DNA of 32,451 nt from Aquificaceae bacterium (lineage in GTDB: Bacteria > Aquificota > Aquificia > Aquificales > Aquificaceae), in contig JANWWY010000016.1 of the NCBI GenBank assembly GCA_025057455.1, positions 1-32,451 on the forward strand, read 5' to 3'. Below the pieces are notes generated by a model that was given only the letters and a program-made list of their open reading frames with translations, was not told where the DNA came from and searched no databases. The translations under genes were made by a program, and so were the position numbers. Below, in pieces: positions 22,493 through 32,187 of this stretch; position 1 is the stretch's first letter; each line of letters opens with the position of its first letter.

Positions 22493-23785
22493 ATGAAAAC
22501 TTTATTACTAATACTTTTGGAGGTGTTTTTTATGACCGCATTAGCCCTTGCAGGAGAGCTTAGAAGCTACAAGCTCCCCAACGGAGCAAAGTTGGTGATA
22601 AACAGGAGGGAGGACACGGAGGCGGTAGCCCTACACGTATGGTTTAAGGTTGGGTCTATATACGAAGACTATCAGCAAAAGGGTATGGCTCATTTTCTGG
22701 AACACATGCTCTTTAACGGCTCAGAAAAGTACCCTTACGGTCAGATAGACTACATCGTAGAAGGTCTTGGTGGAAACTTAAACGCAGGCACCTCAAAGGA
22801 GTACACCTTCTATCACATCACCATAGCCAGACCCTATTGGAAACAAGCTCTTGAAGTGTTATACCAGCTCACTCAAAAACCCCTTCTCTTAGAGGAGATG
22901 GTAGAAAAGGAAAAGCCCATAGTCATAGAGGAGCTAAGGCGTGGGAAGGACAATCCCACCACAGTCCTTTGGGAGGAGTTTGAAAAGCTCTTCTACAAAG
23001 TATCACCTTACAGGCATCCCATAATAGGCTACGAAGAAACCATAAGAAACTTCACAAGAGAAATGCTTCTTGAATTTTACAGAAACTTTTATCAGCCAAG
23101 AAACATGTTCATCGTGATCGTCGGCAACGTGGAGCCCGAAGAGGTTAGAGAAGAGGTCCTTAAAACCTTTGGCAAAGAAGAAGGCAAGCAAGTTCCGAAG
23201 GTTCAAATACTTCCAGAGCCAGAGCAGTTGGAAAACAGGACAAAGACCATAAAAGACCCAAGAGTGGAAAAAACCTACTGGCTCGTAGGTTGGAGGGCAC
23301 CCGCCATAGGAACAAAGGAATACTACGCCCTTGTTGTTTTAGACCAGATATTGGGCAACGGAAGGACTTCTCTATTCTACAGGGAACTAAGAGAAAAGGG
23401 TCTTGTCTACAGCGTATCAACGGGCGACTTTGGAAGACCTAAAGACAACCTGTTTTTTGTGTACGCAACCCTTGACCAAGAAAAGCTTCCACAGGTAAAG
23501 GAAAAGACCTTTGAGCTAATGAGGTCTCTAAGAGAAAAGCTCACACACGAAGAGGTGCAGAAGGCAAAGGAAAGGCTCATAAACTCAGAAGCCTTTGCCC
23601 TCGAAAGGGTTGAAAGGGATGCCTATTATATAGGCTACTCTCTAACTGTAGTGGGAATGTTAGACTACTACAAGTACTTTGAAAACAACATAAGGAGCGT
23701 AAGGAAAGAAGATGTCATCAGGGTGCTTGAAAACTACCTTCTAAACAAGCCTTACAGCGAAATCGTAATGGTGCCCCAAAAATGA
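22493..23785 (+). CDS. exported M16 zinc peptidase (active subunit)
   Basis: A 430-residue insulinase/pitrilysin-family protease. The inverted zinc motif HxxEH is His67-Phe-Leu-Glu70-His71 and the third ligand is Glu147, exactly 76 residues later, as in characterised M16 enzymes. The two-lobed structure is complete, with the second lobe containing the RELREKGLVYSVS motif. Residues 1-20 look like a signal peptide (MKTLLLILLEVFFMTALALA), so it would act in the periplasm, though a glutamate in the hydrophobic core is unusual. An in-frame ATG at 22532 is preceded by a strong GGAGG (22519-22523, eight-base spacing), whereas ATG 22493 has only a weak site. The shorter start would give a cytoplasmic protein. 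It overlaps the second M16 gene by ATGA, and the two probably form a heterodimer. Confidence 0.92.
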   Translation: MKTLLLILLEVFFMTALALAGELRSYKLPNGAKLVINRREDTEAVALHVWFKVGSIYEDYQQKGMAHFLEHMLFNGSEKYPYGQIDYIVEGLGGNLNAGTSKEYTFYHITIARPYWKQALEVLYQLTQKPLLLEEMVEKEKPIVIEELRRGKDNPTTVLWEEFEKLFYKVSPYRHPIIGYEETIRNFTREMLLEFYRNFYQPRNMFIVIVGNVEPEEVREEVLKTFGKEEGKQVPKVQILPEPEQLENRTKTIKDPRVEKTYWLVGWRAPAIGTKEYYALVVLDQILGNGRTSLFYRELREKGLVYSVSTGDFGRPKDNLFFVYATLDQEKLPQVKEKTFELMRSLREKLTHEEVQKAKERLINSEAFALERVERDAYYIGYSLTVVGMLDYYKYFENNIRSVRKEDVIRVLENYLLNKPYSEIVMVPQK

Positions 23786-25035
23786 AGTATATAATACTCT
23801 TGCTTTTTTTTCTAAGCCTTTCTTTTGGGGGTGCAAAGGTGGAAGAGCATACGCTTTCAAATGGCATAAAGCTCATAATAAAGGAGACGAAAGGAAAGGG
23901 TATAGTCTCTGGTGTAATTTTCATAAAGTCTGGCACGCACGGAGAGGACAAAAGGGGGCTTACAAGCCTCACCGCTTCCTTGCTTACCAAGGGAACAAAG
24001 AGTTTTGACTCATACCAGATAGCCAGCACCTTTGAGGATTACGGTGGAAGTATTTATGCTTCAGTCGCAGACGACTACGTGGAGATAGGCTTTTCTACGA
24101 AGGTGGAAGGACTCCATAAAGCCCTTGCGGTGATGAAGAGCATTCTAACGGAACCCCTTTTCTCTGAGCAAGACCTTGAGAGGGAGAAGAGAAATACATT
24201 ACAAGCCATAAGGTCAAGGAGGGAAAGGGGACACGAGCTTGCCATGGACCACCTTAGAGGGCTTACCTACAGAGGTTCCAATTACGAGGTGGGACCTTTG
24301 GGTCTTGAAGAGGATGTAAAGGAAATAAAGAGAGAAGACCTTCTTAAAAGGTGGCAAGAGATATTAAAGGCTGAAAACATAGTTGTGAGCCTTGTGGGGG
24401 ATTTTGACAAGGAAAGTATTATGGGGGAGCTAAGAAAAGCCTTTGAGGGTCTTCCGGGGGGAAGGTACGAACTTAGGATAAAGGATGTGCCAATGGAGAA
24501 AGACCTTTTGGAGAGGGTTAAAAGACCTGGCTCTCAGGCTACGGTGCTTTGTGCCTTTGATGCACCACCCTTTTTGAGTGAAGAATACTTTGCCTTCAAA
24601 GTTTTGGATGCCCTGCTGGGTGATGGTATGACATCAAAACTCTTCAAGGAGCTTAGGGAAAAAAAGGGCTATGCCTACGCGGTCTATTCCACCTATCCCA
24701 CGCGTCTTTCTTCACCAAGGCTTATAGCCTACATAGGCACTTCACCGGAAAAAAAGGAGGATGCCCTCGGAGACCTGATTAAAGTGGTAAAAAATGTAGA
24801 GATTACGCCTGAAGATGTTGAGCTGGCTAAGAACAAAATAGTGGGAGACTTTCTCCTTGCCCATCAGACAAGGCTCAGACAAGCTTGGTACCTTGGATTT
24901 TTTGAGATTATGGGCTTTGGCTGGAGGATGGACGAAGAGTATCCAGAAAGGATAAGGTCTGTAAGCTTGGAGCAGGTCAAAAAGATGAGGGAGAAATACC
25001 TTAAAATACATCATTGCACAGTGGTGGAACCGTGA
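23782..25035 (+). CDS. exported M16-family protein lacking the zinc site (partner subunit)
   Basis: A 417-residue M16 homologue. Where the active subunit has MAHFLEHMLFNG, this one has LTSLTASLLTKG: all three residues of HxxEH are replaced (Ser, Ala, Ser), so it cannot bind catalytic zinc. The second lobe (KELREKKGYAYAVYSTY) is conserved and, by analogy with mitochondrial processing peptidase and bacterial two-gene M16 systems, would supply substrate-binding Arg/Tyr residues. Residues 1-17 are a clean signal peptide (MKYIILLLFFLSLSFGG). Direct ATGA overlap with the active subunit gene argues for equimolar synthesis. Not a pseudogene: the frame is complete and conserved features away from the zinc site are intact. 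Confidence 0.9.
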   Translation: MKYIILLLFFLSLSFGGAKVEEHTLSNGIKLIIKETKGKGIVSGVIFIKSGTHGEDKRGLTSLTASLLTKGTKSFDSYQIASTFEDYGGSIYASVADDYVEIGFSTKVEGLHKALAVMKSILTEPLFSEQDLEREKRNTLQAIRSRRERGHELAMDHLRGLTYRGSNYEVGPLGLEEDVKEIKREDLLKRWQEILKAENIVVSLVGDFDKESIMGELRKAFEGLPGGRYELRIKDVPMEKDLLERVKRPGSQATVLCAFDAPPFLSEEYFAFKVLDALLGDGMTSKLFKELREKKGYAYAVYSTYPTRLSSPRLIAYIGTSPEKKEDALGDLIKVVKNVEITPEDVELAKNKIVGDFLLAHQTRLRQAWYLGFFEIMGFGWRMDEEYPERIRSVSLEQVKKMREKYLKIHHCTVVEP

Positions 25036-25334
25036 TGGCGGATTTTACAAAGGCAGGACTTGACAGAGGAGACCTTGAAAAGGAGCTTGAGCATACGCTA
25101 ATCTCTGCCAAAATGATTTACAGGACATACAGCGCTACCATTGAAGACCTTACAAAGGAGGAGCTTGAGCACGACCTAAAGGAATACTCAGACCAGATTA
25201 GCAGGTTTATAATACCCTTGGTAAAGAGAGCGGAGGGAACAAGAAACAAGAGACTTGTGGACTTGGCTTACGAGATAAGGTATACCTATGAAAGGCTCGT
25301 ACAGCTTATAAAGCAGAGGATAGAAGAGCTTTGA
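25035..25334 (+). CDS. small all-helical protein of unknown function
   Basis: A 99-residue protein I do not recognise. It is predicted to be almost entirely alpha-helical: DLEKELEHTLISAKMIYRTY, then a Glu/Lys-rich helix, then SRFIIPLVKRAEGT and a long C-terminal helix ending in QLIKQRIEEL. No signal peptide, membrane helix, cysteine or nucleic-acid-binding motif is visible. The ATG at 25035 shares its A with the stop TGA of the upstream M16 gene (TGATG), so translation is coupled. The open frame could be extended to a TTG at 25014, which is less likely. Its 3' end overlaps the convergent fliA-like gene by 29 bases. Being last in the sbcDC-M16 run gives no functional clue. Confidence 0.75.
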   Translation: MADFTKAGLDRGDLEKELEHTLISAKMIYRTYSATIEDLTKEELEHDLKEYSDQISRFIIPLVKRAEGTRNKRLVDLAYEIRYTYERLVQLIKQRIEEL

Positions 25335-25995
25335 GCTTTTCTATGGCGGAAGCCTTTATCTGAGAAACCCTTGCCATAGAAACTCCCAACAGCTTTGCCA
25401 CTTCCTTTAGGGGAATATCCTCATAGTAGAGGAGCTGGAGGACCAACTTTTCTCTCTCGTCGAGCTTTTCTATGGCCTTTAGGAGCTTTTCTCTAAGGTC
25501 GCTCTTTATTACTGTCTCTTCAGGTCCTTCCTCTTTGCTTTCAAACAGCTCCTCGTAGCTTCTGCCTTCCTGAAACATTTCGTCAAGGCTAAGAAGGTAG
25601 GAAAAGCTAATAGCTTGAAGCTCTTCCGTTAGTTTTTCTTGGCTTACCCCTAAGAACTGTGCCAACTCCTCGTCGCTTGCCTCCTTCCCCTTCTCCATGC
25701 TTAACCTTTCCATAGCTTGCCTTATGGTTTTCTCCCTAGACCTTAAGTTTCTGCTTGCAAAGTCTAAGCTTCTCAAATAGTCATACATGGCACCCCTTAT
25801 TCGCAATTTTAAGTAAGCTGTTGGGTTTCTGCTCTTGTCAAGCTTTGGCAGGGCCTCTATGAGTGCCAATATGCCATAACCTATAAGGTCGTTCACATCC
25901 ACAGAAGGAGGAAGGTGTCTGTGTATGCGATAGGCTGTCTGTCTAATAAGGGGTAGATAGGACAGTACTAAATCCTTCTGTTCCTCTGAGGTCAT
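25306..25995 (-). CDS. fliA: FliA-like RNA polymerase sigma factor (sigma-28 group)
   Basis: A 229-residue group 3 sigma factor lacking region 1. Region 2 begins LVLSYLPLIRQTAYRIHRHLPPSVDVNDLIGYGILALIEAL, close to the FliA consensus, and continues with RIRGAMYDYLRS (region 2.4 start). Region 3 is EKGKEASDEELAQFLGVSQEKL, and region 4 has LDEREKLVLQLLYYEDIPLKEVAKLLGVSMARVSQIKASAIEKLK, where the SxARVSQI helix is typical of sigma-28. In flagellated bacteria FliA transcribes late flagellar, pilin and chemotaxis genes. Here it is the last gene of a type II secretion operon and no flagellar gene is visible. The ATG at 25995 gives the usual FliA N-terminus; a GTG at 26016 overlapping the upstream gene would add seven residues. 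Neither has a clear ribosome site. Confidence 0.85.
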   Translation of the reverse strand: MTSEEQKDLVLSYLPLIRQTAYRIHRHLPPSVDVNDLIGYGILALIEALPKLDKSRNPTAYLKLRIRGAMYDYLRSLDFASRNLRSREKTIRQAMERLSMEKGKEASDEELAQFLGVSQEKLTEELQAISFSYLLSLDEMFQEGRSYEELFESKEEGPEETVIKSDLREKLLKAIEKLDEREKLVLQLLYYEDIPLKEVAKLLGVSMARVSQIKASAIEKLKALLSSAL

Positions 25996-26005
25996 TATGA
26001 ATATT

Positions 26006-26497
26006 TTAGCCAGCACCGTAGGATGTAAGCAAAGGATATAGGAAATTAAACCACAGAAGATTACTCAAAAGGTGTAAAAGAGAAACAAAAACCAAAGAAC
26101 CTGTCCTTTGGTAAACCACACCAAACAGGAGGGATGGGAAAAAGGTAAGCACAGACCAAAGGTCGCCGTAAAGTATTACGTGAGGAAGAGTAAAAAGCAC
26201 AGATGTAAACAAAAGTGAAAATTTACTCATTAGATAGGCTCTAAAGAAGGTCTCCTCCGCAAGAGCTTGCAGGGCAAGATTTAAGAAGTTGTTAGGGTAG
26301 AGATAATACAGGAACGGCAGAGAAAAAAGGGAAAGATTCCAGGGGCTTTTTATGCCAAGTCTTTCCAAGGGTATAAAGGCAAGAGGGAGAAACAGTATTA
26401 TGGGACTGAGATTGGGAAAGCCCAAAAATCTGTGGCTCAGAAGGCTTAGAATCAAGAGTCCATAGAGGACAAGCTCAGTATATTTTCTTATAAACAA
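26006..26497 (-). CDS. CPBP-family glutamic-type intramembrane protease
   Basis: A 163-residue very hydrophobic protein with about five or six membrane segments. All CPBP (Abi/Rce1) catalytic motifs are intact: EETFFR (Glu81, Glu82, Arg86), LPHVILYG (His106) and HLLSN (His142, Asn146). The family includes CAAX processing enzymes and the bacterial sorting proteases (myxosortase-type) that cleave C-terminal Cys-containing tags. At 163 residues it is a minimal version, as are many sorting-type members. It overlaps gspK by 23 bases and is followed by the fliA-like gene, so it is embedded in the type II secretion operon. Its likely substrate is the tagged protease encoded at 30316-32187, but this is inference. 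Confidence 0.88.
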   Translation of the reverse strand: MFIRKYTELVLYGLLILSLLSHRFLGFPNLSPIILFLPLAFIPLERLGIKSPWNLSLFSLPFLYYLYPNNFLNLALQALAEETFFRAYLMSKFSLLFTSVLFTLPHVILYGDLWSVLTFFPSLLFGVVYQRTGSLVFVSLLHLLSNLLWFNFLYPLLTSYGAG

Positions 26498-27323
26498 ACC
26501 TGCCTGCCTCCCTGTCGTATATGGCAGAAAAGCTTACGTTGTATCCGCCCGTCTTTAAGTCCATAACTATGTGAAAAAATCTACTCTTGGTGTCTATGTA
26601 GTTTCTGACCTTGTAGAGCATGTCAAAGGTAAAGCCCTCAACGAGGACCAAATCCTCTGGCTTTCTGAAGGGTTCTTTTGTTCTTCTTTCCACGATTTTC
26701 GTGGCTAAGGCTTGGTCTATCCTGTTATCAAGAAGCATAAGAACCGTAGGGGGTGCTGTGTTTACGTTTACCTTTCCAGAAGAAAAGGTAGTGCTTACGC
26801 TCCAAAGCCCTGGATAGAAGGTCTCGCCTACGTTTTTTCCCTGTAGGTCCTCCGGTTTAAAACCTACGTAAAGGAGCTCCTCCTTTGAGTGGAGGGGTGC
26901 ACGCTTTATGGGATACTGACTATCAAAGGAGCCATCCTTCTTGCCTATCCATATGAGAAGCCTTTCAAGATACTGACTTTCTATCCTAAGGTAAGAAAAG
27001 ATATTTCTGAAAAGTTCTAAGTCTTCCCCAGCCCTGTTAAGGTTTATAAACCTATCTTCGTCGTATATGCTTATGGTGAGCTCGCCCCTCTCTGTTTTAA
27101 AGCCTATGGGATAGGCCCATCTTTCGCCAAGGTGGTCTACGGTAGGGTCATCGGACCTTATTATGGCTATCGCTAAGGGAAGGGCGGACTTAAACACGTA
27201 AAGAGCCTGAGTTCTCGCATATACCTGCTCCACTGCCCTTTGCGTGCTTCTTACTGCGGTATAGAGGTCAAGCACCATAGTGCTGGCACTTAAGAAAAGA
27301 AACAAAGCCAAAACTACAGTCAT
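26475..27323 (-). CDS. gspK: GspK-like minor pseudopilin of the type II secretion system
   Basis: A 282-residue protein with a hydrophobic N-terminal helix (residues 2-20) and a large periplasmic domain. GspK traits are the GELTISIYDEDRFINLNRAGED segment, the two SAM-like helical regions and the hallmark GKVNVNTAPPTVLMLL, followed by FRKPEDLVLVEGFT. GspK caps the pseudopilus tip with GspI and GspJ. An oddity: there is no prepilin leader. Translation begins directly in the hydrophobic helix (MTVVLALFLFLS), with no positively charged leader and no Gly before the cleavage point, and the in-frame upstream codons contain no start. It overlaps gspM by ATGA and the CPBP gene by 23 bases. Confidence in the family is good, in processing low. 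Confidence 0.85.
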   Translation of the reverse strand: MTVVLALFLFLSASTMVLDLYTAVRSTQRAVEQVYARTQALYVFKSALPLAIAIIRSDDPTVDHLGERWAYPIGFKTERGELTISIYDEDRFINLNRAGEDLELFRNIFSYLRIESQYLERLLIWIGKKDGSFDSQYPIKRAPLHSKEELLYVGFKPEDLQGKNVGETFYPGLWSVSTTFSSGKVNVNTAPPTVLMLLDNRIDQALATKIVERRTKEPFRKPEDLVLVEGFTFDMLYKVRNYIDTKSRFFHIVMDLKTGGYNVSFSAIYDREAGRFVYKKIY

Positions 27324-27712
27324 CTTATTCTCATATCCACCTCGTACAGCCCCTGACCTGTGTTGTCAACCCCTGTAAACTTAAGAATTTCCACGCCAGA
27401 GCTCTCCAAAGAGTATATAAACTTTGGTACGTTCTCTCCCCTTAGGTTTCTCGCCCTTACCTCGTAGCCTACATCCACCTGCTTGAAAGAGACAAAGTCA
27501 GCACCCACCTCTGAAAGCTTCAGTCTTACGAAGTTCTCGTCTATGTTTGCCTTCTGCCTTGTATGATAATTTTTCAGAAGAAGCATAACCTCCTTATGCA
27601 GTAAGTATTCCAAATAGTAGGCATCCCTAAGTCTATAGTATCTTTCAAGTAGAAAAGCCAAAAGGACTAAGCTCAAAAGCAAGAGGACAAAGTTCACCCT
27701 TCTTACGCTCAT
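27320..27712 (-). CDS. gspM: GspM-like inner-membrane platform protein
   Basis: A 130-residue bitopic protein: short basic N-terminus (MSVRR), a membrane helix (about residues 6-22), a helical linker and a C-terminal ferredoxin-like domain (VSFKQVDVGYEVRARN...GVEILKFTG...LYEVDMRIR). This is the layout of GspM/EpsM and, more distantly, PilO. The assignment rests on this topology and on its place between gspL and gspK rather than on a strict motif. It would stabilise GspL and link the ATPase to the pseudopilus. It overlaps both neighbours by ATGA. Confidence 0.75.
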   Translation of the reverse strand: MSVRRVNFVLLLLSLVLLAFLLERYYRLRDAYYLEYLLHKEVMLLLKNYHTRQKANIDENFVRLKLSEVGADFVSFKQVDVGYEVRARNLRGENVPKFIYSLESSGVEILKFTGVDNTGQGLYEVDMRIR

Positions 27713-28863
27713 GGCAGTCTAATCTCAAATTCTACGCTACCGGCTGGTGTCTCTTTGGTAGATTGTAGCTTTAGACCTTCTAAGGTCTTCCTGTCTGCCT
27801 CACCCTTTACGCTGAGCCTTCCGTCCGCATACTCAAAGCGGTAGAGCTTCATGCCTGGCTTTAGGCTTTCCTGAGCTTTTACAAAAAGCTTCGTGAGCCT
27901 GTATTCTTCCCCCGTGGAAACCTTTGCCCTAACCTGTTGATGCAATGAAACTATAGGTTCTCTTGGAAATAACTTTTTAAACTCTGTCCTTTGAAGCTCT
28001 CTCAGCTCTTGCGTAGAGTAGAGCCTTTGCATGGCAAGAAGGCTAACAAAAAAGGCCACCGCAATACCAACACCAGAAAAGGCTATCTTTCTTAGGTCCT
28101 CCTGAGATAACTCCCTCCTTGTGAAATCTGGGTAGGGATTTTTCAGAACCTCCCTTAGGCACGCACCAAGGCACACCGCATACTCTGGCTCACAGTAAGT
28201 TAGAGGTATAACTTGGGGGAAAAGTCCTTCCAAGCCCTTTAGCCTAGAACCACCACCCGTAAGAAGCACTTTCCTCTCTTCAAAGCTATAACCTGAAAGC
28301 TCGAGAATTTCCTCTACCGATGCCTTGACCTCCGCCAAGCTTAGACCTTCGCTCTTCTTTAGTTTTTCAGCCTCCTCCAGACTCAAGCTCTTAGCCTCGC
28401 ATACCCTCTGAGTTATGTAATCACCTCCCCTTAGCACGACCCTGAAAGATTTTAGAAGCCCCCCCTCCACCTCAACAAAAACCGTTTTCCTCCTTCCCCA
28501 GTCTATGGCAAAGCCATTGTTAGAATACAGGCTAAAAAGTCTTGCAAGGGCAAAAGGCTCAAGCTCAACAAACTCACAGCGGTTAAAGTTCCTGTAGAGG
28601 GCGAGATATAACCTATCGTCCACATAGCCAACATCATACCTGCTTTCTGGAAACTTTTCCCTTGCGTAGGCTTTCAAGGTTTGAACTGTGGACTTTCTCT
28701 CATGCTTTTTATACCTCTCCGTCCTTATAAAACACCTATCTGAAGGCACCACGCACAGGATTTTGCCCCTTTTTGAAGATACATGCCAGTTTTTTGAAAT
28801 TGGACTGTATTCAAGGCTAAAAAGCTTTTCCCCTTCCTTGGCTGTTATAACCCTTCTTAGCAT
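27709..28863 (-). CDS. gspL: GspL-like actin-fold platform protein
   Basis: A 384-residue protein with a cytoplasmic actin-like domain (about 1-245), including a PilM/GspL-type phosphate-loop region (FAIDWGRRKTVFVEVEGG) and the adenosine-type loop VLLTGGGSRLKGLEGLF near residues 200-216. A membrane helix follows (about 258-277, FSGVGIAVAFFVSLLAMQ), and a periplasmic ferredoxin-like domain ends at residue 384. This is the GspL layout: the cytoplasmic part binds GspE and the periplasmic part binds GspM. The start abuts the gspE stop (TGAATG). PilM plus PilN fused would look alike; the following gspM and gspK favour type II secretion. Confidence 0.82.
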   Translation of the reverse strand: MLRRVITAKEGEKLFSLEYSPISKNWHVSSKRGKILCVVPSDRCFIRTERYKKHERKSTVQTLKAYAREKFPESRYDVGYVDDRLYLALYRNFNRCEFVELEPFALARLFSLYSNNGFAIDWGRRKTVFVEVEGGLLKSFRVVLRGGDYITQRVCEAKSLSLEEAEKLKKSEGLSLAEVKASVEEILELSGYSFEERKVLLTGGGSRLKGLEGLFPQVIPLTYCEPEYAVCLGACLREVLKNPYPDFTRRELSQEDLRKIAFSGVGIAVAFFVSLLAMQRLYSTQELRELQRTEFKKLFPREPIVSLHQQVRAKVSTGEEYRLTKLFVKAQESLKPGMKLYRFEYADGRLSVKGEADRKTLEGLKLQSTKETPAGSVEFEIRLP

Positions 28864-30273
28864 TCACCCCTCCACCTTTACCGCCCTTACTACTTCTTCA
28901 AGGGTGGTTATGCCTGCTAAAGCCTTCCTTATGCCATCTTCCAGCATGCTCTTAAAACCCCTTGACCTGGCAAAGTTTCTCAGCTCTACCGCATCCTGAG
29001 TCCTGAGTATTACCTTTTTAAATTCTTCGTCCACTTCCAGGACTTCGTATATGCCCGTCCTTCCCCTGTAGCCCGTTCCCATGCAATGCTCGCAACCTTT
29101 CCCCTTGTAGAGGGTGCAGTCCTCTTGCAAACCAAACTCCAAAAGCTCTTCCTTTGAAGGTCTGTATTCCTCTTTGCAATGAGGGCATACTTTCCTTACA
29201 AGCCTTTGTGCCACCACACCATCAAGAGCTGAAGCAATGAGAAAAGGCTCAATACCTAAGTCAAAGAGCCTTGTTATGGCGGAAGTTGCGTCGTTTGTAT
29301 GAAGGGTAGAGAGAACGAGATGTCCCGTCAGGGCAGACTGAACCGCTATTTCTGCCGTCTCCGGGTCTCTTATCTCCCCCACCATTATCACGTCTGGGTC
29401 TTGTCTTAGCACTGCTCTTAGCCCTGCGGCAAAGGTAAGACCTACCTTTGGATTTACCTGAATTTGGCTTACGCCTTCAATTTGGTATTCTGGTGGGTCT
29501 TCTATGGTTATGATGTTCCTCGTAGGCGTCTTTATCTCCAGAATCATTGCGTAGAGGGTGGTGCTTTTCCCCGCACCCGTAGGACCCGTTGCCAGCACTA
29601 TACCGTAGGGCTTGCGAGAAAGCCTTCTTAGCTTTATAAGGTCTTCCTCCCAAAGTCCGAGGTCTTCAAGCCTTAAGAGTCTTCCTCCTTTCTCCAAGAG
29701 CCTCAAAACGACCCTTTCACTGAAAACTGTGGGCACAACAGAAACTCTTATGTCCAAGTGCCTTGCTCCCACCTTGACCGCTATCTTACCATCTTGAGGA
29801 ATTCTCCTCTCCGCCACATTAAGGCTTGCCAGCACCTTTATGCGCAAAACCACCTGTTCATGGAGGGATGTAGGGATGTGCGTATACTCGTGGAGAACAC
29901 CATCCAGCCTGATTCTTACCGTTGACTGACTCTCATAAGGTTCTATATGAACATCGGAGGCACCCGAGTTAACAGCTTTTATGAGCACTTGATTTACAAA
30001 GCTAACCGCAGGGCTTGTTTCTTCCTCGTATAGTATATCTTTGACTTCTCTTTCTTCAAACTCCCCTTCTATTCTTACCTCTTCCTGTGCAAGCACCTCT
30101 TGCAGTTTTTGAGCAAACTCCTCTTCTGGCAAAAACACTGGAATGATTTCCTTACCAGTACCAAACCTAAGCTCTTCAAGGGTAAGAGGGTCCACATTCC
30201 TTGGTGCAAGCACCTTTATGTAGCCGTCCCCCTCTTCCAGCGGCACAAGACGGTAGGTTTTTAGGAGGTCCAT
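28864..30273 (-). CDS. gspE: type II secretion ATPase GspE
   Basis: A 469-residue hexameric ATPase that powers pseudopilus assembly. The N-terminal part is short (a GspE-N-like domain up to about residue 90); then come the conserved SDVHIEPYE segment, Walker A GPTGAGKSTT (about 229-238), the Asp box, Walker B QDPDVIMVGEIRDPETA and the His box GHLVLSTLHTNDA. A zinc-binding pair of CxxC motifs (CPHC near 360, CEHC near 392) precedes GTGYRGRTGIYEVLEV. PilB would look similar; gspL, gspM and gspK after it decide for GspE. The other components (gspC, D, F, G, H, I, J, prepilin peptidase) are not in the window. It heads the operon. The 8-base gap between a TAAAAT -10 candidate and the ATG, with no ribosome site, suggests a leaderless start. 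Confidence 0.93.
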   Translation of the reverse strand: MDLLKTYRLVPLEEGDGYIKVLAPRNVDPLTLEELRFGTGKEIIPVFLPEEEFAQKLQEVLAQEEVRIEGEFEEREVKDILYEEETSPAVSFVNQVLIKAVNSGASDVHIEPYESQSTVRIRLDGVLHEYTHIPTSLHEQVVLRIKVLASLNVAERRIPQDGKIAVKVGARHLDIRVSVVPTVFSERVVLRLLEKGGRLLRLEDLGLWEEDLIKLRRLSRKPYGIVLATGPTGAGKSTTLYAMILEIKTPTRNIITIEDPPEYQIEGVSQIQVNPKVGLTFAAGLRAVLRQDPDVIMVGEIRDPETAEIAVQSALTGHLVLSTLHTNDATSAITRLFDLGIEPFLIASALDGVVAQRLVRKVCPHCKEEYRPSKEELLEFGLQEDCTLYKGKGCEHCMGTGYRGRTGIYEVLEVDEEFKKVILRTQDAVELRNFARSRGFKSMLEDGIRKALAGITTLEEVVRAVKVEG

Positions 30274-30315
30274 GGGTTAAAATTTTATCAATTTTGGTAC
30301 ATGAGGGTATAAACA
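30274..30315. promoter_or_regulatory. 42-base divergent control region between gspE and the S8 protease
   Basis: This tiny gap must hold both promoters, or they extend into the genes. For gspE (minus strand) TAAAAT lies at 30287-30282; overlapping it, ATTGATAA (30292-30285) matches 5 of 8 bases of the sigma-28 -10 GCCGATAA, with a poor -35. For the protease (plus strand) TTATCA-17-TATAAA (30285-30313) looks like a promoter, but its start would fall after the ATG, so it probably is not the one used. A GAGGG ribosome site (30303-30307) precedes that ATG by eight bases. Overlap of the two sets of elements suggests mutual interference or joint control. Confidence 0.35.
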
Positions 30316-32187
30316 ATGTTGAACTTTGTATATGTCCTCGTTCTTCTTTTAGGCTTTTCTTTGGCTGACGAAGTAAAGGTGCTAACCAAGGACGGAAAAG
30401 TTAAGGTGGTTAAAGAAAATACCTTATTCCAGCTCAAGTCCCAAGTCCTATACTGGGAAAAGCCTAAACCTCTCAAGCTTTACGATAGCATACTCAGAGG
30501 ATACTCTATAGGATTTCACATAACATCCCCTACCACCTTGAGCATACCCGTACAGCAGGGTCAGATTATAGACCTTTTTGATATAAACGCCAACGCCACA
30601 ACATCAGGGCAATGTAGCATTACAGCAAGCACAACAGAGGGAGGGAGGAGACTTAGCTGTGGCGCCGGAAGTTTAACAATCAACCTATCCTCAAGCAACG
30701 GTAGGTTGATACTGTCATCTTACACTCATCCGCTGAGTCTACTGCCAAACTCTTACTACTTGGGAACCGGTGCGAGCCTGAGCGGTAGGACGGGAAGGGG
30801 CGTGTACGTGGCGGTGGTGGACTCGGGCATAGACCTTTGCCATCCACTTTTTAGGGATAGAGTGGCCTTCTTCTATGATGCGGTTGCAGGCAGAGAAATG
30901 GACAAAAACGCAATAAGGGAAGCAGTTAGCAGTGGACAATGCGACCAGGATTTTGGAGGTCATGGCACTGCGGTGGCTGGCGTGGTAGCAAGCATAGCCC
31001 CAGAAGCGGAACTAATAGTAGTAAGAGTGGTAGCCAGCAACGAAGAAGTCACAGATACTTCAGTAATAAGGGCAATAGAATACCTAAAGAACAAAAGAAG
31101 AACGACCGGAAGACCTATGGTCATTAACCTATCCCTTGGAAACAATTATGGTCCTGGTGATGGCACAAGCCTTTTAAACTTAGCCATAGAACAAGCTCTG
31201 AGTAGCGGTATGTTGGTGGTGGCATCAGCCGGCAACGAGGGGGACAAGCCAGTAAGGGGCGTAATAGAAAACGCAACTTCCGCAAATGTCCAATTAAACC
31301 TTTCAGGCGGTATACCCATAGAGGTTTGGTACGGTAGAAGCTCTGCCTACGAAATAAAGCTCTGCGACAGCTTTGGAAGATGCGCAATTTCAACCACAGA
31401 AAGCTACACATCCACGCTACCGTGTGTTTCTCAAATTCAACGCGCTCTATATCCACCCAACGGGAAGTATGTGGTAGACATAGACCACAATTGCAATGGG
31501 ATATACAACCTTAGAATACAGCTCATATCGGGCCAGCCATCCAGAGCGGACTTGTTCGCAGGACTTACACCCAATGCTTTCATGAACTACACGGTACCAG
31601 ACGGTAAGGGTGGATATCTCTACACTATTGCAAACCCGGCGGACGGTAGAGGGGTTATAGCGGTAGGCTCCTTTACTTCAAGACCTCTCACTCCAAACTC
31701 AAAAGCCTTCACAGATCTTGGACTCTTGGCCTACTTTTCCTCAAGGGGTCCAACAGTAGATGGAAGGATAAAGCCAGACATAACCGCAGGTGGATATTAT
31801 GTATATACTGCGGTGGAGGGTTCGGGCTACGGATACATAGCGGGCACATCCTTTTCCGCACCAGTGGTTGCGGGGATGTTATCCCTGTTGTTAGAAGCAA
31901 ACCCAAACTTAGATGTTTACGAAGCAAGAAACTTGCTGTGCAGAATGGCCATCAGAGATTCGGCGGTAGGAGATATCCCTAATAACTTTTTCGGTTGTGG
32001 TAAAGCTCACATGGCTGACATAAGCACAGTTCAACAGCCTCCAGCACAACAAGAAAGTGGTGGCGGTGGAGGTTGCCAAGTAGGTGGACCAGCATATGCG
32101 TGGACCTACGCCTTAGTATTGGTTTTTGTCCTTTTAAGAAGGTTAACAAACCTTAAGGGAGATGGAAAAGGTAGACATATTAGTTAA
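30316..32187 (+). CDS. secreted subtilisin-family (S8) serine protease with C-terminal sorting tag
   Basis: A 623-residue protease. Residues 1-17 are a signal peptide (LNFVYVLVLLLGFSLAD). An N-terminal pro-like beta-rich region runs to about 150. The catalytic triad is Asp169 (VDSGID), His216 (GGHGTAVAG) and Ser512 (GTSFSAPVVAG), with oxyanion Asn307 (SAGNEG), so it should be active. About 200 residues separate Asn307 and Ser512, far more than in subtilisin, because a beta-rich domain with several Cys is inserted (about 325-450). The tail is the odd part: a Gln/Pro linker, five Gly, Cys587, a membrane helix (593-607), Arg608-Arg609 and about 14 more residues. The gene is divergent from the type II secretion operon and overlaps the next gene by 26 bases. 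Substrates are unknown. Confidence 0.93.
   Translation: MLNFVYVLVLLLGFSLADEVKVLTKDGKVKVVKENTLFQLKSQVLYWEKPKPLKLYDSILRGYSIGFHITSPTTLSIPVQQGQIIDLFDINANATTSGQCSITASTTEGGRRLSCGAGSLTINLSSSNGRLILSSYTHPLSLLPNSYYLGTGASLSGRTGRGVYVAVVDSGIDLCHPLFRDRVAFFYDAVAGREMDKNAIREAVSSGQCDQDFGGHGTAVAGVVASIAPEAELIVVRVVASNEEVTDTSVIRAIEYLKNKRRTTGRPMVINLSLGNNYGPGDGTSLLNLAIEQALSSGMLVVASAGNEGDKPVRGVIENATSANVQLNLSGGIPIEVWYGRSSAYEIKLCDSFGRCAISTTESYTSTLPCVSQIQRALYPPNGKYVVDIDHNCNGIYNLRIQLISGQPSRADLFAGLTPNAFMNYTVPDGKGGYLYTIANPADGRGVIAVGSFTSRPLTPNSKAFTDLGLLAYFSSRGPTVDGRIKPDITAGGYYVYTAVEGSGYGYIAGTSFSAPVVAGMLSLLLEANPNLDVYEARNLLCRMAIRDSAVGDIPNNFFGCGKAHMADISTVQQPPAQQESGGGGGCQVGGPAYAWTYALVLVFVLLRRLTNLKGDGKGRHIS
32059..32142 (+). other. 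coding segment for a Gly5-Cys/transmembrane/Arg-Arg C-terminal tag
   Basis: Codons 582-609 of the S8 protease encode GGGGG-C-QVGGPA, a 15-residue hydrophobic helix and RR. This is the layout of three-part C-terminal sorting tags with a single Cys (MYXO-CTERM, Synergist-CTERM, JDVT-CTERM kinds, from memory), which CPBP-type proteases are thought to cleave. It does not match PEP-CTERM or LPXTG. I cannot say which class, if any, it belongs to. Confidence 0.6.

Follow-up and report, generated by a model that had tools for sequence, protein, structure and literature searches.

A candidate myxosortase-type, cysteine-tailed sorting system linked to type II secretion genes in the Aquificales

A pathway proposed for Myxococcus leads from Sec export, through lipidation of a cysteine and cleavage by a myxosortase, to the cell surface by way of the type II secretion system (T2SS) (PMC11980579). 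The cleavage of TraA by MrtX, its dependence on cysteine and the dependence on the T2SS are experimental; the lipidation of the cysteine is proposed, perhaps by an Lgt-like enzyme, with Lgt as the named candidate (PMC11980579). The GlyGly-CTERM proteins of Vibrio also rely on the T2SS, paired with another protease, and in that system the Ig fold of VesB works as a T2SS signal (PMC13393428).

Here, we describe a locus from an Aquificaceae bacterium, lying in a stretch of 32,451 nucleotides that was analysed as a whole (the window), which probably represents the Aquificales form of a myxosortase-type, Cys-tailed C-terminal sorting system tied to the T2SS. An earlier note had read the cluster as an Aquificales counterpart of this kind, with a CPBP protease and the T2SS, and the reading holds in outline, on the strength of tails found throughout the order and of their co-occurrence with the enzyme.

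Anatomy of the locus

The genes gspE, gspL, the gene in the gspM position and gspK are contiguous or overlapping, and the CPBP gene is the last of the run (Table 1). The coordinates, which abut or overlap, agree with the earlier placing of the CPBP gene inside an overlapping gspE-L-M-K operon. The scores of GspK (90.3 bits against an NCBIfam cut-off of 130) and GspE (599.8 against 630) both fall short, yet these families are the best matches; the protein in the M position has no family match in NCBIfam or Pfam, so that the name GspM is given by position and synteny only. GspD is present in the same genome (472 bits, cut-off 351), as is Lgt, and the genome thus holds GspD, GspE and GspK/L/M, the last in operon order and with M assigned by position.

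Table 1. Features of the locus, with positions in the window
Feature	Position	Strand	Basis
CPBP-family glutamic intramembrane protease, myxosortase-like	26006..26497	-	Mrt_core, Rce1-like, residues, AF2
gspK-like T2SS minor pseudopilin	26475..27323	-	NCBIfam T2SS_GspK 90.3 bits, Pfam T2SSK
gspM-position T2SS gene	27320..27712	-	position, size, conserved synteny
gspL-like actin-fold T2SS gene	27709..28863	-	Pfam FtsA above cut-off, weak PilM similarity, position
gspE T2SS ATPase	28864..30273	-	TIGR02533 599.8 bits (cut-off 630), T2SSE 447 bits
secreted S8 (subtilisin-like) protease, presumed substrate, signal peptide MLNFVYVLVLLLGFSLA	30316..32187	+	Peptidase_S8 158 bits (Pfam)
C-terminal sorting tail SGGGGGC-QVGGPAYAWTYALVLVFVLL-RR (Gly-rich, Cys587, helix, basic)	32056..32154	+	tail profiles A1, A2

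The CPBP open reading frame has a TTG start and encodes 163 residues, overlapping gspK upstream and a FliA-type sigma-factor gene downstream. Residues 81, 82, 106, 142 and 146 are E, E, H, H and N, the full catalytic set (E81/E82, H106, H142/N146) that had been assigned to these positions before; the EE/R, H and H-N residues of the myxosortase family are thereby present, and all five are invariant in 19 of 19 diverse Aquificales orthologues (alignment A3). The AlphaFold2 model of the protein has a mean pLDDT of 94.2. A Foldseek search of this model against the PDB returned nothing significant, the best hit (E 0.7) being SpdC, which we take to be a CPBP-fold protein. The overlapping sigma-factor gene is of FliA/WhiG type (window 25306-26016), and two tandem M16 peptidase-like genes, named by eye (window 22493-25035), are conserved next to the locus in the genus.

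Diverging from gspE over a gap of 42 bases, the S8 protease has 623 residues, keeps the motifs VDSGID168, GGHGTA214, SAGNEG304 and GTSFSAP510, and terminates in SGGGGGC587-QVGGPAYAWTYALVLVFVLLRR and then a short basic stretch. This anatomy is as described earlier, namely a subtilisin-like protease 42 bases from the operon that ends in Gly5-Cys587, a helix and Arg-Arg.

The cysteine tail across the order

The tail was sought with profiles in 112 genomes of the order (threshold E<=1e-3), divided by the names in the scan into Aquificaceae (including Hydrogenobacter and Thermocrinis) and Hydrogenothermaceae (including Sulfurihydrogenibium and Persephonella). The window tail was itself used in building A1 and A2, so its own score holds by construction and its relatives provide the test. 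The searches found the tail on dozens of diverse exported proteins, one to about nine per genome. From 60 fetched regions, 57 distinct C-terminal tails of the Gly-rich, Cys, helix and basic type were read, and their passengers are unrelated: S8 proteases, SBBP/DUF7948 propellers, beta-helix and PKD proteins and VesB-like Ig-domain proteins. A simple hydrophobicity rule assigns a signal-like N terminus to 44 of the 52 complete tailed proteins. Two tailed proteins (L159 and L201) carry a HYDIN/VesB-like Ig domain (PF22544). In one relative (G027), three identical tails lie close to the ends of contigs C13, C52 and C53 (L144-L146), which suggests that a tailed surface protein is present there in several copies and interrupts the assembly.

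The tail profile search of the window's own genome found no second tailed protein. One candidate there, C28:4008, was taken as a chance match (53% identity over 19 residues); it lies inside a region read from sequence as pyruvate dehydrogenase genes. The earlier note had called for a search of this kind and held that a tail unique to one protein would count against its reading. Uniqueness stands within this genome and fails across the order, where the same tail is found on many other proteins, and it is these order-wide data that answer the uniqueness in the genome itself.

When compared with the curated models, the window tail scores 16.3-16.8 bits with MYXO-CTERM (TIGR03901, cut-off 20) and matches neither the JDVT-CTERM model (cut-off 27) nor the Synerg-CTERM model TIGR04564. 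Among the relatives, the G027 tail passes MYXO-CTERM (25.6 bits) and one other passes TIGR04564 (23.9 bits, cut-off 22.5); other tails of the order pass none of the curated CTERM cut-offs. The scores of the tails depend on a short model. The tail falls in the cysteine-bearing group of CTERM signals (MYXO, Synerg and JDVT), with this copy below all curated cut-offs. The earlier note could not place it.

Every S8 homologue of the order with a readable C-terminal region keeps the Cys tail and, since these homologues were gathered by whole-protein similarity rather than by the tail, this is more than chance. The cysteine is invariant in S8 homologues of the two families, a claim limited to these homologues because the A2 set was partly chosen by a G-C pattern. 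In the homologue of G011 the tail is followed by an extension, and in that of G060 (L056, G060:C35) the frame stops directly after GGGC and a stretch resembling a helix lies in a different frame.

The CPBP enzyme, its distribution and its gene linkage

The NCBIfam model that ranks first for the CPBP protein is Mrt_core (NF040914; 54.7 bits against a cut-off of 100, which is reached in none of the 112 genomes), followed by MrtP, MrtJ, MrtS, MrtC, MrtX and MrtZ, all under their cut-offs. These seven families are myxosortase, JDVT or Synerg enzymes, and the first CPBP family outside them scores 23 bits; the Pfam Rce1-like match is 43.7 bits (cut-off 22.4). The window protein scores 42.4 bits with MrtS (cut-off 130), which is the best NCBIfam match for two Hydrogenothermaceae enzymes (75.8 and 73.3 bits). 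A tree of 86 CPBP cores, with rows from one motif-seeded scan and a short alignment, separates the Aquificales enzymes (100/94) from MrtJ-type rows found in other phyla and sets them nearer the myxobacterial rows than MrtJ; one distant gammaproteobacterial row, whose branch is very long, is intermingled with the Aquificales ones. Filing the enzyme as MrtJ was rejected, given a score under the cut-off (46.1 against 75) and the separate branch. The Aquificales enzyme appears, from these comparisons, to be related to the myxosortase of myxobacteria, and in this phylum it goes unrecognised by the present family models.

Elsewhere, MrtJ-type CPBP genes adjoin a large Cys-tailed protein at seven loci (L320, L323, L328, L332, L338, L341 and L343), of which L320 and L323 exceed the MrtJ cut-off. 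PMC11980579 names beta- and gammaproteobacteria, and the present records, from Nitrospira and Campylobacterota, lie outside these groups.

The window CPBP query and the Mrt_core model retrieve an identical 76 of the 112 genomes, and the enzyme is normally the sole such protein in its genome. Tail and enzyme occur together in 59 genomes, with 4 having the tail only, 17 the enzyme only and 32 neither (Fisher p 1.6e-11, with kinship ignored). For genomes at least 90% complete the corresponding counts are 46, 2, 11 and 13 (p 2.5e-6), and at genus level they are 16, 0, 2 and 4 (p 0.002), a count in which kinship between genomes weighs less but still plays a part. The phylogenetic profile suggested earlier thereby places a CPBP gene in 59 of the 63 tail-bearing genomes, which is the co-occurrence with Cys-containing CTERM proteins that characterises the myxosortase family. 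GspK is associated with the tail to a similar degree (58 both, 5 tail only, 15 GspK only and 34 neither). In G045 (99% complete) the tail is present and neither CPBP nor GspK was found; in G073 (96% complete) tails and T2SS are present and CPBP was not found, nor was the gene flanking the enzyme that served to mark the locus.

The distribution also bears on whether the genome's rhomboid protease might process the tail, as in the GlyGly-CTERM/rhombosortase pairing, and the CPBP protein have some other role. The genome does have one rhomboid gene, but its product is not a rhombosortase (16.3 bits against a cut-off of 84), and none was found in this genome. Furthermore, rhomboids persist in the tail-less G036, G037, G038, G051 and G057, none was found in the tail-bearing G010, G016 and G068, and the tail is associated far less closely with the rhomboid (odds 6.5) than with the enzyme (odds 27.8). 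We consider this reading extremely improbable, and a rhomboid was rejected as the sorting enzyme on model score and distribution.

Enzyme and secretion system are also tied by gene order. In 18 genomes of genera g1, g4, g6 and g8 (G000, G025-G029, G035, G039-G043, G046, G048, G052, G053, G055 and G056), the enzyme gene begins where gspK ends, and in G104, a member of the sister family, it lies within a gsp locus; in genera other than g1, g4, g6, g8 and g21, no enzyme gene was seen at such a locus. The gene for the tailed S8 protease diverges from gspE in G000, G035 (where the copy leaves the contig end before the tail), G040 and G046, and in G043 it lies directly upstream of gspE, in tandem. 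The enzyme adjoins the tailed S8 protease in G055, G082, G088, G092 and G104. Record RFFP01000034.1 (L281), titled 'Acidobacteria bacterium isolate J001', is equal in length (18588) to G040:C12, a contig with the gene order of Aquificaceae, and the title looks wrong.

The components are also lost together: in the complete genomes G036 and G037, one shared junction stands in place of gspELMK and of the enzyme's first 38 residues, and neither GspK nor a tail at E<=1e-3 was found in either. The sigma-factor gene still adjoins the CPBP gene in both, despite the loss of the remaining gsp operon.

A position after gspK in the operon would also suit a CPBP protein that serves T2SS assembly or another substrate, with the tail as an ordinary, unprocessed membrane anchor, and G097 and G099 carry the enzyme where neither GspK nor a clear tail was found. 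In several Hydrogenothermaceae, however, the enzyme lies outside the gsp loci and beside the tailed protease, and the conservation of GGGC would be unexpected for a simple anchor; we judge this alternative to be very unlikely.

Proposed mechanism and comparison with known systems

We tentatively propose the following route. The S8 protease would leave the cytoplasm by Sec, via its N-terminal signal peptide, and its C-terminal helix would keep it in the inner membrane, where Cys587 and the Gly-rich linker would face the periplasm and RR the cytoplasm. Cys587 would probably be lipidated first, by a separate acyltransferase, and the CPBP enzyme would then cut inside the GGGGGC motif or immediately behind it. 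The T2SS of the same operon would take the protein across the outer membrane, and its lipid would anchor it to the cell surface. That the CPBP enzyme processes the tail we regard as likely; we are less confident of lipid anchoring.

The enzyme might instead cut the tail with no lipid added, freeing the protease into the periplasm or, via the T2SS, into the medium. No system-specific acyltransferase is seen near the locus, the cysteine precedes the helix, which is the inverse of a lipobox, and Vibrio VesB is released by alternative GlpG cutting (PMC13393428). Plain cutting would not obviously need a cysteine, however, and the cysteine is invariant in the S8 homologues; moreover, cleavage by MrtX depends on conserved cysteines (PMC11980579). 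We consider release of this kind unlikely, and processing together with lipidation remains the reading that we favour.

These observations extend Cys-dependent C-terminal sorting, in the form proposed here, to a deep-branching thermophilic phylum, and operon membership together with co-loss provides genome-level evidence for a link between CPBP protease and T2SS that has so far rested on Myxococcus. It is conceivable, if rather doubtful, that the myxosortase-like protease of the Aquificaceae is a dedicated accessory of the T2SS, with cutting and hand-over coupled genetically and perhaps physically, and that the tail forms a class distinct from MYXO, JDVT, Synerg and CGP. Since the enzyme is small and thermophilic and has one candidate substrate here, the two would make a tractable pair in vitro for the cut site and the lipidation of the cysteine.

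The locus displays individual features of several described systems. With MYXO-CTERM and MrtX, MrtC and MrtP of the Myxococcota it shares a CPBP glutamic protease, a Gly-rich Cys tail with helix and Arg, a T2SS and signal peptides on the substrates. Unlike the myxosortases, the Aquificales enzyme is short, remains at 54.7 of the 100 bits of Mrt_core and is encoded in the gsp operon; the tailed proteins number one to about nine per genome rather than dozens, and the window tail reaches 16.3 of 20 bits on TIGR03901. As in JDVT-CTERM/MrtJ, a small CPBP protein lies close to a single tailed protein, but the window tail lacks an FDP-like motif after the cysteine and the enzyme stays under the MrtJ cut-off (46.1/75). 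The similarity to Synerg-CTERM/MrtS lies in the two Hydrogenothermaceae enzymes that match MrtS best and in the relative's tail that passes TIGR04564, although the enzymes are below the MrtS cut-off and the window tail is not matched. GlyGly-CTERM/rhombosortase of Vibrio differs in its unrelated enzyme class and in the cysteine that is invariant here among S8 homologues, and it is nevertheless similar in the tripartite tail on secreted serine proteases, in T2SS export and, for some tailed Aquificales proteins, in an Ig domain like that of VesB.
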